From: Pseudomonadota bacterium
Lineage (GTDB): Bacteria > Pseudomonadota > Gammaproteobacteria > Acidiferrobacterales > Acidiferrobacteraceae
DNA length: 42,911 nt
Direction of reading: 5' to 3'
Assembly: GCA_021777535.1 (NCBI GenBank)
Contig: JAJYDN010000013.1
Coordinates: 1-42,911 of the forward strand
In this document: piece after piece, positions 38,129 to 42,797 of the stretch
Layout of the letters: every line of letters begins with the position of its first letter
How positions within the stretch are numbered: position 1 is the stretch's first letter
Made by a program: the position numbers and the translations under genes
The notes under the pieces: model-generated
The model's input: the letters and a program-made list of their open reading frames with translations, nothing else
The model's database searches: none
Told to the model about the DNA's origin: nothing

Positions 38129-40450
38129 TCAGCCCACATCCCCGGTGAGCGCCGCCTCCACACTGCAGGCGCCCGTCGACACGGCAGACTCGCTCGTGTA
38201 GGCACTTATGCTCTGGCCCGCGGCAAAGCTCGGGATCAGAAAGCTGGCCACGCTGCCGTTGTTACTGGCAGTGCCATAACAGCTGTTGACGACATACAGG
38301 GTCTGTCCGTCGGCGGCGATCGCGAGCGCGTAGGGGTTCGTCAACGAGGCCGGTGTCAGCGTGCCGATGGCGCTGAAACTCGTGCTCGGCGCCTCGGGCG
38401 TCGCCCGCGCAAAGATCGTGAGCGTGCCCGGGGCAGCAGATCCTCCGTTGAGGGTCGTCACATAGAGCCGGCGCCCCTTCGGGCCCATGGCAAGCCCCAG
38501 GGGATCGGCGCCGACAGGGAGTGTCGTCGAGAGCGTGAGCGTGCCGTTGGCGGCGTCGATACGATAGACAGACACCTGGCCCGACGGGCCGTTGTCGGCG
38601 ACAAAGAGGTGGCGGCCCGACGGGCCGACCAGAAGCGTCCACGGACCCTTCCCCTGACCACCGATCGGCGCGGTGTCGATGGCCCCGAGCGCGCCGCTGT
38701 TGGCATCGACCGAAAAGGCCCCGACGACATTGGCTGCATTTTCCGATACGAACAGATACTGGCCGGTGGGATCCATAGTCAGCAGCATGGGGAAGGTGGC
38801 TCCCAATGCGGCCTCGACACCGAGTGACGACAGCGCGCCGCCGCTGCCGACCGCGTAGCCCTGGATGCTGCCCTGGGCGCAGTTGCTGCCGTCGGGCGTC
38901 GCCGCCGTCGCGTTCACATAGCAGCTGTTCGCCACATAGAGGTACCGGTTCGACGGATCGACGGCCACGCCCATGGGGCTTTCGCCGGCTGCAACGGAGC
39001 CCGCATTGGTCAAGATCCCGCCGGTGCCGATCGTGAAGGCCGTCACATCGCCCGGCCCGGCGCTCGCCCAGTCCGACACGTAGACGGTCTGGGCACCGGG
39101 GGCGAGCGCGATGGCGCTTGGCCCCTGCTCGGCGGTCTCCGTTCCGGTACTTGCGGGCACCGGTGTACCAAAGGTCCCGCCGGAAACGAGCGGATACGCG
39201 GCCACCGTGGAGGACGACTGGTTGTCTACATAGAGGAAGGAGGGATTGGCGGTGATCTGCGCGGTGACGCTCGCGAGCGCGACCGGCATCTGGCGTGTGC
39301 GCACGAGCGTGGTCAGCACGGGCGCGGTGGCCATGCCATCGAAGGCCGCGAGATCATCGCGGCTTTGCTCGGCCACATAGACTGCGTGCGCCCCCGGCAC
39401 CGCCGTCACCGCACTCGGGGTTCCGGCCAGGGTGACCATCTGCGTCGGACAGGAAACCTTCCCGCCGGTGGCCGGCACCGCGAGCAGCGCCGTCTCGCCA
39501 CCCTGCTCGCCGGCAACCGTCGCATAGCCGTTGGCGACCGCCAGGGCGACGGGGGTAAAGTCCGGCCCAAACGGCAGGGCGGTGGCCGGCGTCAGCGTAC
39601 CGTTGCTGGCCGTATAGCTCGTGAGCCCAGACGACGTCAGTACATACAGATTGCCCCCCGGACCGCTGGCCGCGGCGACGACCCCCGACAACGAAACCGA
39701 TTGCCCGGCGTTGAGCGCCCCATTGCCCGCCACCGAATAGACCGTGATGCCGTTGCCGTTGATGCCAAAGAGCATGCCGGCGCCGGCGACGAGGCCGGTC
39801 AGCGTCGGCGCCGGGGTCTGCCCCAGCGGCGCCAGGGCCCCGCCGCTGCCGATGGAAAAGGCGGCGATCGCGCCGCTGCCGGCATCCGCCGCATACAGGG
39901 TCGAGCCCTCGATCGCGAGCGCCACCGGCTCGCTGCCGGCACTCACGCTCGAAGCGCCGGCCGGGAGCGGCTCAAGGAGGGCCTGCTGCGCAGACCAGGC
40001 AAACGCCGAAAGGGTGCCGTCACCCTTGTTCGCGACATAGACATACTGGCCGGCGGCGGTGGCCTTCGCGGCCACTGCGACCGGGTCCTGGCCGGTCGGT
40101 ACATAGCCACGATCGAGCAAGGTACCCGTCCAGGGGTCGCGCAGGTAGACGCCCACGCTGTGGGTTCCGGTCGCCGCCAGCACGAGGGTCGCGGAGACCG
40201 TGGCTGTACTGGTACTGGGGGCGGTCGGCGTCGCCGGCACCGCCACGGGTGCGGCTTGCGGGGTCAGGGCGCTGCACTGCACGGGGGTGGCAGTCGGCGC
40301 GGGCGCGGCGGTGACCTTTGTTGCCGGGGGGGAATTGCCGGAGCTGGTCGTGCTGTTGCCCGCTCCGCTGCTGCTTGCCCCCCCACCCTGGCAGGCCGTC
40401 AGCAGCGCACAGGCCAGCAACATCCCGATCATTCGCGTCATCCTTGACAT
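38129..40450 (-). CDS. Large beta-propeller lipoprotein
   Basis: A 773-residue lipoprotein. The signal peptide ends at lipobox LTAC (about 17-20), followed by a Gly/Ser/Thr/Pro-rich linker to about residue 100. The rest is made of YVTN/lactonase-like repeats: YVYVANKGDGTLSAF, LYAADAGSGAIAAFSI, TVYVSDWASAGPGDVTAFTI, YLYVANSCYVN, YLFVSENAANVVGAFSV, HLFVADNGPSGQVSVYRI and RLYVTTLNGG. There are enough blades for two seven-bladed propellers. Such proteins may bind surface ligands or redox partners; catalytic lactonase function is not shown. AGGGGG precedes the ATG by 6 nt, and TATAAA (minus strand, 40508-40503) may be its -10. It lies 128 bp after fnr on the same strand. Confidence 0.85.
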   Translation of the reverse strand: MSRMTRMIGMLLACALLTACQGGGASSSGAGNSTTSSGNSPPATKVTAAPAPTATPVQCSALTPQAAPVAVPATPTAPSTSTATVSATLVLAATGTHSVGVYLRDPWTGTLLDRGYVPTGQDPVAVAAKATAAGQYVYVANKGDGTLSAFAWSAQQALLEPLPAGASSVSAGSEPVALAIEGSTLYAADAGSGAIAAFSIGSGGALAPLGQTPAPTLTGLVAGAGMLFGINGNGITVYSVAGNGALNAGQSVSLSGVVAAASGPGGNLYVLTSSGLTSYTASNGTLTPATALPFGPDFTPVALAVANGYATVAGEQGGETALLAVPATGGKVSCPTQMVTLAGTPSAVTAVPGAHAVYVAEQSRDDLAAFDGMATAPVLTTLVRTRQMPVALASVTAQITANPSFLYVDNQSSSTVAAYPLVSGGTFGTPVPASTGTETAEQGPSAIALAPGAQTVYVSDWASAGPGDVTAFTIGTGGILTNAGSVAAGESPMGVAVDPSNRYLYVANSCYVNATAATPDGSNCAQGSIQGYAVGSGGALSSLGVEAALGATFPMLLTMDPTGQYLFVSENAANVVGAFSVDANSGALGAIDTAPIGGQGKGPWTLLVGPSGRHLFVADNGPSGQVSVYRIDAANGTLTLSTTLPVGADPLGLAMGPKGRRLYVTTLNGGSAAPGTLTIFARATPEAPSTSFSAIGTLTPASLTNPYALAIAADGQTLYVVNSCYGTASNNGSVASFLIPSFAAGQSISAYTSESAVSTGACSVEAALTGDVG

Positions 40451-40578: not shown

Positions 40579-41322
40579 TTAGCGGCGCAAAACACCCGAC
40601 ACGAGTGCGCGCAGCCGGTCGATGTCGAGGATTTCGATCGCGCGGCCGGCGACCGCCACCAGGCCCTCGCGGCGAAACTGCGAGAACACCCGGCTTACGG
40701 TCTCGAGCTTCAGGCCGAGATAGTTGCCGATGTCTTCGCGCGACATCGGCAGCTGGAGGAGGGTGGGTGAACGGCCGCGCGCGCCCAGGCGGGTGGACAG
40801 ATCAAGCAGAAAGGCGGCAAGCCTGTGCTCGGCGCGCATCGTGCCCAGCATCATCATGAGTGTCTGGCTGGTGACGATGCTGGCGCTCAAGATGGCGTGA
40901 AAACGCCGCTGCAATCCGGGCAACCCGGTCAGCAGATCCTCGAAGCGGTCAAACGGGATCACGCACACTTCGGCATCCACCAGGGCGAGCGCGTTGCCGC
41001 GGTGGACACCGCCGCTGATGGCATCGAGCCCCAGGAGTTCGCCTTCGGTCTGAAAACCGGTGACCTGTTCGCGCCCGTCGGCGCCGAGTTCGTACACCTT
41101 GAAAAAACCCGCCCGCACTGCGGCAAGCGACCGGAAGGCGTCGCCGACGCGAAAGAGATGCTGGCCCGCCGACACCTTGCGGCGCTGGGTTATCACTTCG
41201 TCCAGGCGCTTGATGTCGTCTTGATCCAGGCCAAGCGGCAGACAGAGGTGGCGCAGACTGCAGGTCGAGCAGCGCTTCTTCACATCCTCATGCGGCAGCG
41301 CAGCTGCGGCGATGTCATTCAT
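40579..41322 (-). CDS. fnr: FNR-type oxygen-sensing regulator
   Basis: A 247-residue CRP/FNR-family regulator. Four cluster cysteines are present: CSTCSLRHLC (C18, C21, C27) and C120 in AEVCVIPFD, matching the [4Fe-4S] ligands of E. coli FNR. The cyclic-nucleotide-like beta roll (about 45-130), dimer helix, and helix-turn-helix SREDIGNYLGLKLETVSRVFSQF follow; the E..SR recognition residues specify TTGAT half-sites. It should activate or repress genes under low oxygen. It diverges from the cytochrome-porin gene over a region with an FNR box, so autoregulation is also possible. Confidence 0.95.
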   Translation of the reverse strand: MNDIAAAALPHEDVKKRCSTCSLRHLCLPLGLDQDDIKRLDEVITQRRKVSAGQHLFRVGDAFRSLAAVRAGFFKVYELGADGREQVTGFQTEGELLGLDAISGGVHRGNALALVDAEVCVIPFDRFEDLLTGLPGLQRRFHAILSASIVTSQTLMMMLGTMRAEHRLAAFLLDLSTRLGARGRSPTLLQLPMSREDIGNYLGLKLETVSRVFSQFRREGLVAVAGRAIEILDIDRLRALVSGVLRR

Positions 41323-41388
41323 CTTCCCGAAACCCCTTTCTGCGCGATGTGAAATTTCTGGTGCCGATCAGGGAATAAAAATCTGACC

Positions 41389-41402
41389 TTGACGAAGATC
41401 AA
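41389..41402. promoter_or_regulatory. FNR box upstream of the cytochrome-porin gene
   Basis: TTGACGAAGATCAA differs from the FNR consensus TTGAT-N4-ATCAA at one base. Its centre (41395.5) is 41.5 bp before about 41437. TAGCCT at 41425-41430 would be the matching -10, the geometry of a class II FNR-activated promoter reading right toward 41478. It also lies upstream of fnr on the other strand. Binding is inferred from sequence. Confidence 0.72.
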
Positions 41403-41477
41403 AACATACCATGCAAGCGGTCGCTAGCCTAGCTACGCTCAAGCATGAAACCGATTCTTTCGGCAAAGGGGGGAAAA

Positions 41478-42797
41478 ATGAAGTATCGCTTTAAGGGGGC
41501 CCTGGTCGCTGGCGCGGCACTGGCTCTTATGTCCCGGGGCGCCTACGCGGTCCCGAGTTTCGCCAGACAGACGGGTCTGCCCTGCGCGGTCTGCCATGAC
41601 GTGCCGCCGCAGCTGACCCAATTCGGCCGGACCTTCAAGCTGGACGGCTATGTGATGACGACGCTGCCGCAGGTCGCGCAGGGCAACAGCCTGTCGATCA
41701 ACCGCGTGCCGCCGCTGTCGGTGATGGTGCAGATGTCGGCCACCACACTGACCCATGAGAAATATCCGGCAACCAACGTGCAAAACACCAGCGTCGAGTT
41801 CCCGCAGCAGCTGAGCCTCTTCTACGCGGGCGAGATCACGCCGTCCATGGGCGCGTTCATGCAGGTCACCTACACGAACGGCCAGGGCGCATTCAACATG
41901 GACAACACCGATATCCGCTATGCGCACCAGAACACGGTCGCCGGCATCCCGGTCACCTGGGGTATCGACATGAACAACAACCCGACCGTGGAAGACCTGT
42001 GGAACACGGTTCCGGCGTGGGCGTTCCCGTGGGGCCACTCCAACCTCGCAGACCATCCGTTCAGCGCGTACACGCCGATGGTCGACGAAAACACCGCGCT
42101 GGGTGTCGCAGGCCTTGGCGAATACTCGATGTGGAACGGCGCCTGGTATGAAGACTTCTCCGTGTACCGCACCTCGCAGGTCGCCGGGCCACAGATCAAC
42201 CCCGAGACGCTAGGCGGCGCCATCAGCGGGGTTGCGCCCTACTGGCGGTTGTCGTGGAACCACAACTTCACCGACGGCAGCTCGTGGGAAATCGGCACCT
42301 TCGGCATGCACGCGGGCTTCAACGGCGGCGAGTATGGCACGGGTGCGGTCGGCGTCGACGACACCTATACCGACTACGCGGTGGACACGCAGTTCGACCA
42401 CCACTTCGGTAACGACCTGCTGACGGCGTACGCTACGTACATCCGCGAGAATCAGGACCTGGCATCGTCTGCCCTGGCCATCCCGGGCATGAAACAGCAC
42501 CAGAACCTGAACGCGGTGCATGTGACGGGCACCTACCAGTTCGGGCTGCATTACCAGATCGCGGCGAACTACTTCAACACGTCCGGCACCACCAACCCGC
42601 TCTACTACAACGCGGTAAACGGTGTGGTCACCAACGGCGATCCGGCATCGGCGGGCTTCATCGGCCGCGTGACCTATCTGCCTTGGGAAAACACGCAGTT
42701 CACGCTGCAGTACACGGGGTACACCAAGTTCGATGGTACATCCACGAATGCGGGCAAGAGCAACAGCCTCTACCTGCTGGCCTGGTACCTCTGGTAA
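41478..42797 (+). CDS. Monoheme cytochrome c-porin outer-membrane protein
   Basis: A 439-residue exported protein. The signal peptide (1-24, ending GAYA) is followed at once by PSFARQTGLPCAVCHDVPPQLTQFGRTFKLDGY, with one heme c motif CAVCH (36-40). The remainder has alternating polar and hydrophobic strands, rich in Tyr, Trp, Asn, Gly and Thr, and ends in an aromatic strand SLYLLAWYLW, as beta-barrels do. This resembles the layout of the fused cytochrome-porin Cyc2, which oxidises iron outside the cell, and a wider uncharacterised FARQTG cytochrome family. The FQHYP-like segment of Cyc2 is not present, so iron oxidation is unproven. ATG 41478 has GGGGGG 5 nt upstream; ATG 41445 is less likely. 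Confidence 0.78.
   Translation: MKYRFKGALVAGAALALMSRGAYAVPSFARQTGLPCAVCHDVPPQLTQFGRTFKLDGYVMTTLPQVAQGNSLSINRVPPLSVMVQMSATTLTHEKYPATNVQNTSVEFPQQLSLFYAGEITPSMGAFMQVTYTNGQGAFNMDNTDIRYAHQNTVAGIPVTWGIDMNNNPTVEDLWNTVPAWAFPWGHSNLADHPFSAYTPMVDENTALGVAGLGEYSMWNGAWYEDFSVYRTSQVAGPQINPETLGGAISGVAPYWRLSWNHNFTDGSSWEIGTFGMHAGFNGGEYGTGAVGVDDTYTDYAVDTQFDHHFGNDLLTAYATYIRENQDLASSALAIPGMKQHQNLNAVHVTGTYQFGLHYQIAANYFNTSGTTNPLYYNAVNGVVTNGDPASAGFIGRVTYLPWENTQFTLQYTGYTKFDGTSTNAGKSNSLYLLAWYLW

Follow-up and report, generated by a model that had tools for sequence, protein, structure and literature searches.

A stand-alone Cyc2-family cytochrome-porin with an FNR-type class II promoter and a possible part in anaerobic ferric iron respiration

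Described Cyc2 systems and the locus

Cyc2 proteins have been defined by the consensus AXPXFAR[Q/K][T/Y], followed by a CXXCH heme motif, by PXL four residues further on and by a fused 16-strand porin, in a chain of at least 365 residues (PMC8406198). In Acidithiobacillus ferrooxidans, as well as in the Acidiferrobacter-type arrangement cyc2-cyc1-cup-coxBACD-rus (PMC10654088), the gene belongs to a rus operon. Cyc2B of At. ferrooxidans, described together with Cyc1B, is a second, stand-alone protein tied to anoxic growth, and both Cyc2 and Cyc2B, which rise anaerobically, have been proposed as terminal Fe(III) reductases of the anaerobic organism (PMC8790237, PMC7735108). The cyc2 gene serves as a metagenome marker for microbial iron oxidation, and acidophiles have as yet no agreed terminal ferric reductase.

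We have analysed a stretch of 42.9 kb, hereafter the window, that carries a cyc2 gene divergent from an fnr gene (Table 1). The window protein shares with the rus-operon Cyc2 the N-terminal motif, CXXCH, PXL, the signature NNxPxxxDxWN and the C-terminal aromatic residue. In contrast to rus-operon copies, its gene stands alone with no cyc1, cox or rusticyanin gene adjoining, the genes on its 3' side being unrelated to cyc1-cup-coxBACD-rus; moreover, it is preceded by an FNR box that rus promoters lack, and no cytochrome c oxidase was found in its genome. Compared with the published description of Cyc2B/Cyc1B, bc1 and c4 partners are likewise present in the genome, although no cyc1 lies next to the window gene. 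The likeness to Cyc2 PV-1 of Mariprofundus ferrooxydans (cluster 1, PMC8406198) is one of published consensus and layout only, PV-1 being a neutrophilic oxidase, unlike the window Cyc2. MtrAB, PioAB and MtoAB are also outer-membrane electron conduits with a porin, but they combine a ten-heme cytochrome with a separate porin, whereas the window protein has one heme in one chain.

Table 1. Features of the divergent fnr-cyc2 region, in window positions
Feature	Positions	Strand	Basis
fnr, four-cysteine oxygen-sensing regulator, 247 aa, divergent from cyc2	40579..41322	-	profile match and Cys pattern
FNR box TTGACGAAGATCAA	41389..41402	+	9/10 specified positions; perfect TTGATGTAGATCAA in closest relative (L021)
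predicted -10 hexamer TAGCCT	41425..41430	+	22 nt past box, class II spacing
cyc2, stand-alone Cyc2-family outer-membrane monoheme cytochrome-porin, 439 aa	41478..42797	+	motif, alignments
predicted signal peptide MKYRFKGALVAGAALALMSRGAYA	41478..41549	+	by inspection; region kept among relatives
Cyc2-defining region VPSFARQTGLPCAVCHDVPPQL (AXPXFARQT, CXXCH, PXL)	41550..41615	+	sequence versus published consensus

Membership of the window protein in the Cyc2 family

A longer reading frame (41445-42797, 450 aa) could be considered for cyc2, but the start at 41478 is the better one, with a G-rich Shine-Dalgarno-like run directly 5' of it. Inspection of the N-terminus predicted cleavage at MKYRFKGALVAGAALALMSRGAYA|VPSFARQTGLPCAVCH, that is, AYA|VPSFARQTGLPCAVCHDVPPQL, which makes the first heme cysteine the twelfth residue of the predicted mature chain, in agreement with the first-pass annotation that had located CXXCH within 16 residues of the cleavage site. 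CAVCH (C36-H40) is the sole heme motif and contains the only two cysteines of the protein. AVPSFARQT at residues 24-32 fits the published consensus, P44-Q-L46 provides the PXL four residues past the heme motif, and the length exceeds the 365-residue minimum.

Neither Pfam nor NCBIfam gave a credible match for any of 17 family members. Reference Cyc2 proteins were fixed by context, as cyc2 genes with coxA and rusticyanin above curated cut-off within ~8 kb in relatives from the window's taxonomic family. The group of the window protein aligned with the set of rus-operon Cyc2 with an hhalign probability of 100% (E 5e-57, 425 columns), and BLASTP of the window protein against a rus-type Cyc2 gave 32% identity (2e-61), within a full-length range of 32-35%. 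The comparison over 17 relatives, which included plasmid copies from Caballeronia, Ideonella, Paraburkholderia, Polymorphobacter and Acidithiobacillus, left 34 invariant columns, among them N167, P169, D173, W175 and N176 of the porin part; the odd low identity of L025 was traced to a run of N within its gene. In the tree, the window protein fell in an eight-member clade (99/97), separate from a nine-member clade (100/100) with the rus-operon copies. No second Cyc2 was found in the window's genome.

The first-pass annotation was right in recognising a monoheme cytochrome-porin of outer-membrane type with the Cyc2 layout. On the other hand, it had kept the protein apart from Cyc2 on the ground that the sequence following the heme was different; in fact PXL is present and the entire porin part can be aligned with Cyc2 of cyc2-coxBA-rus operons. 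The separate, uncharacterised FARQTG family that it proposed is ruled out as well, the motif being part of the published defining consensus (PMC8406198). Consensus and full-length alignment together therefore identify the protein as a new member of the known Cyc2 family, from the stand-alone clade, and on its sequence the gene is an ordinary-looking one. Family membership, like the conserved FNR-type promoter and the respiratory inventory given below, is read from sequence, while for the window Cyc2 we infer heme attachment, carriers, substrate and direction of electron flow, along with the binding of FNR to the promoter.

The fold gave a fainter signal. AlphaFold2 models from five and six sequences reached pLDDT values of 27.0 and 27.6 and were beta-rich but too uncertain for use, and a strand-alternation count found 18 segments versus 14.2 ± 2.4 in shuffled sequences, a weak signal 1.6 SD above. 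PDB searches returned chance matches only (best E 0.04, at the signal-peptide/heme end). The C-terminus YLLAWYLW fits outer-membrane proteins and its last aromatic residue is kept by nearly all relatives. A porin barrel and an outer-membrane location are predicted for this protein, the barrel because of its homology to Cyc2.

Some organisms that carry Cyc2-like genes are not known to oxidise iron (PMC8406198), such genes are present on the Caballeronia, Ideonella and Paraburkholderia plasmids, and DsrE/TusA/YeeE-like sulfur genes, named by eye, lie 3-7 kb downstream of the window cyc2. These facts would suit a Cyc2-like conduit whose donor or acceptor is not iron but, for instance, sulfur compounds, other metals or another cell. 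However, among homologues anchored by context the closest are Cyc2 proteins of rus operons, and true rus operons occur in the window's taxonomic family, making such a conduit improbable in our judgement. The likeness of these operons to those described for Acidiferrobacter suggests that the family is Acidiferrobacteraceae.

Several plasmid-borne Cyc2-like genes are annotated as hypothetical, namely L047 (CP084173.1, At. ferrooxidans YQ-N3) and those of Acidiphilium NC_009469.1 and NC_015179.1. In YQ-N3 a c-type cytochrome gene comes after it, suggesting that cyc2-cytochrome pairs are mobile among acidophiles. The second Cyc2 copy of L038 (7484-9061) contains a tandem repeat of ~24 residues (GNIYTSANGSPNTTDEWVEASYLP) within its porin part.

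A conserved FNR-type promoter of stand-alone cyc2 genes

The divergent gene encodes an Fnr/Crp protein that scores 219 bits against PRK11161, slightly below the curated cut-off of 228. The four cysteines noted at first pass are confirmed as C18-X2-C21-X5-C27 plus the central C120, and the recognition helix has the pattern E-x-x-S-R (ETVSR). Just past fnr, positions 38129-40450 (-) encode a 773-aa repeat-rich, beta-propeller-like lipoprotein.

The FNR box matched nine of ten specified positions in the test for an FNR-type class II promoter (TTGATN4ATCAA at -41.5), which also yielded a putative start. Such a 9/10 box is expected by chance in the 325 nt upstream with a probability of ~0.008, and the window contains a single TTGAYNNNNRTCAA site versus 0.09 expected. 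TAGCCT, 22 nt after the box, predicts a transcription start near 41437 that would set the box at -41.5, bearing out the near-perfect box at class II distance reported initially. Scanning for sigma-70 promoters gave no match, in line with a class II site, which lacks a -35 element. Genome-wide, TTGAYN4ATCAA occurred at 12 distinct sites and the reversed control pattern at none; several of these sites were close to hemN, cyoA, DUF2249-like and hemerythrin-like genes and to a second fnr (cyoA and the second fnr were identified by NCBIfam, the others named by eye). This second four-cysteine fnr (G000:C12, L076:3462-4265) is separated by an FNR-type site from a divergent hemerythrin-like gene.

Across the order, the box is again found ahead of stand-alone cyc2 genes, including some without a neighbouring fnr. 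In the closest relative (L021) a perfect box stands at the same position with fnr divergent, and perfect or 9/10 boxes also precede cyc2 in L022/L023, L011 and L030. Sites of 8/10, such as those of L025, L029, L031 and L035, are individually not significant (P ~0.12). Spacing is kept across 11 non-identical cyc2 promoters, where the likeness to a -10 hexamer was 62 at 22 nt past the box versus 21 ± 8 at other offsets and TA occupied the first two -10 positions in 9/11; a shuffle test of this spacing gave 0/5000, a value overstated since the promoters belong to related genes. By contrast, the rus-operon cyc2 genes of L036, L037, L039 and L045 have no box (best 6-7/10), whereas the same lineage also has second copies, in stand-alone cyc2-cytochrome pairs (L035, L038, L040), that reach 8-9/10. 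The published rus promoters of At. ferrooxidans (PMC5506826) likewise have no box, with matches of 5-6/10. Among stand-alone genes no box was found for L032, L033 and L034, and the rule is therefore not universal.

The position of the box, 67 bp from the fnr start codon, and the box near the second fnr could instead point to fnr autoregulation, with cyc2 merely adjoining and no target of FNR. Against this, L022 and L023 retain a perfect box with no fnr found within ~6 kb either side of cyc2, so that the site belongs with cyc2, and most promoters have a -10 at class II distance towards cyc2, while towards fnr the window box has CGGCAC at that distance and no -10. We consider autoregulation as the sole function of the box very improbable. 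The promoter comparisons argue instead that FNR would directly activate cyc2 from a class II site as oxygen falls. No paper linking FNR to cyc2, nor any earlier description of a conserved FNR class II promoter marking stand-alone rather than rus-operon cyc2, was found in the open-access literature searched.

Eight cyc2 promoters (L022, L023, L025, L118, L031, L035, L038 and L040), from different clades, carry TATATTAG exactly four bases before the FNR box, ~200-370 nt 5' of the heme codons. TATTAG appears at a like place in L011, and TATATTAG is absent from the window and L021 promoters. The element is possibly the site of a second regulator or UP-like.

Respiratory inventory and direction of electron flow

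The window's genome (a draft of 2.30 Mb in 76 contigs, 99.6% complete) encodes a sole PF00115 heme-copper oxidase protein, which is CyoB (824 bits to CyoB versus 494 to CtaD), with a subunit II devoid of the CuA ligand cysteines. A bd oxidase is present alongside this bo3 quinol oxidase, and no cytochrome c oxidase was detected in the 76 contigs. The bc1 cluster has the order cycA (diheme c4)-SDR-petA-petB-petC, the same as reported for the pet operon linked to iron in Acidithiobacillus and Acidiferrobacter (PMC2754497, PMC10654088). Three molybdopterin enzymes are encoded, NuoG, a thiosulfate-reductase/formate-dehydrogenase-like protein and an FdhF/YdeP-like protein, with no nitrate reductase (NarG, NapA) among them. 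True rusticyanin was not found in the genome, whose rusticyanin-like protein reaches half of the curated cut-off score and is of a kind also present in genomes with true rusticyanin; likewise, no periplasmic carrier gene of known family was found next to cyc2. The nearest relative with cyc2 (G001) shows quinol-type oxidases only, and more distant bearers of the FNR-boxed gene have cbb3 (G009, G011) or aa3 (G004, G021). We found no earlier description of a Cyc2 carrier without cytochrome c oxidase in open-access papers.

The presence of bc1 and c4 without a detectable cytochrome c oxidase calls for another electron partner, outward flow being most likely, and anoxic induction of an outer-membrane cytochrome would indicate extracellular Fe(III) as acceptor. 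According to this model, a drop in oxygen would lead FNR to switch on cyc2 directly via the class II site, and electrons would travel from quinol through bc1, c4 and one or more periplasmic carriers to Cyc2 and extracellular Fe(III), allowing the organism to carry out anaerobic ferric respiration, probably on reduced sulfur. The same path has been put forward for At. ferrooxidans (PMC8790237, PMC7735108). Anaerobic growth on S0/Fe(III) has been listed for Acidiferrobacter thiooxydans (PMC8790237, table). A stand-alone, class II FNR-activated Cyc2 working outward to Fe(III) appears to be the best explanation as a whole, and we lean towards it by a little more than an even chance; as to the outward direction by itself, our confidence lies at about the balance point or just above.

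The main rival is microoxic Fe(II) oxidation, in which FNR would raise Cyc2 at low oxygen, when Fe(II) persists, and the inward flow of electrons would supply both bc1, uphill for NADH, and a high-affinity oxidase. Those Cyc2 proteins that have been tested biochemically are Fe(II) oxidisers (PMC8406198), which counts against the outward reading, and the cycA-SDR-petABC cluster fits the petI layout used uphill by At. ferrooxidans (PMC2754497). Inward flow is possible above all in those relatives that share the FNR-boxed gene and possess cbb3 or aa3 oxidases, and the link to ferric reduction is therefore not general. In the window's genome, however, the downhill branch would have no detectable cytochrome c oxidase. 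Furthermore, electrons from Fe(II) at its acidic potential reach a quinol oxidase only at the cost of proton-motive force. For these reasons we regard Fe(II) oxidation by the window Cyc2 as less likely than outward flow, though as the most serious alternative to it.

A broader and more tentative proposal, which we hold with somewhat less than even confidence, is that one order contains two regulatory kinds of Cyc2 paralogue, a rus-operon kind for aerobic Fe(II) oxidation and an FNR class II kind for anaerobic Fe(III) respiration, and that the window's genus retains the second kind alone, without cytochrome c oxidase, Cyc2 acting solely as a ferric reductase. If FNR-controlled stand-alone copies do run the opposite way, cyc2 counts would overestimate iron oxidation, and the promoter motif, a -10 placed 22 nt past an FNR box, would separate the two Cyc2 roles. 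A lineage with Cyc2, bc1 and c4 and no cytochrome c oxidase makes the question of the acidophile ferric reductase testable.

Other genes were observed on the 3' side of cyc2. In L029 (7809-8258), L030 (8119-8547) and L031 (10583-11023) the gene directly 3' of cyc2 encodes a small secreted protein in which HIHxGxCGHINP and VYVACGNI stretches are conserved; Pfam gave no match for it, and it is a candidate copper or redox partner. Downstream of the window gene, at ~0.8 kb and convergent, L027:2597-3304 (-) is an uncertain gene without Pfam match that may encode a small c-type cytochrome (CAGCH). Past the window end, L027:3458-7074 (-) contains a DsrE-, TusA- and YeeE/YedE-like cluster with a rhodanese, followed by a Porin_O_P-like protein (PF07396), placing sulfur handling near cyc2.
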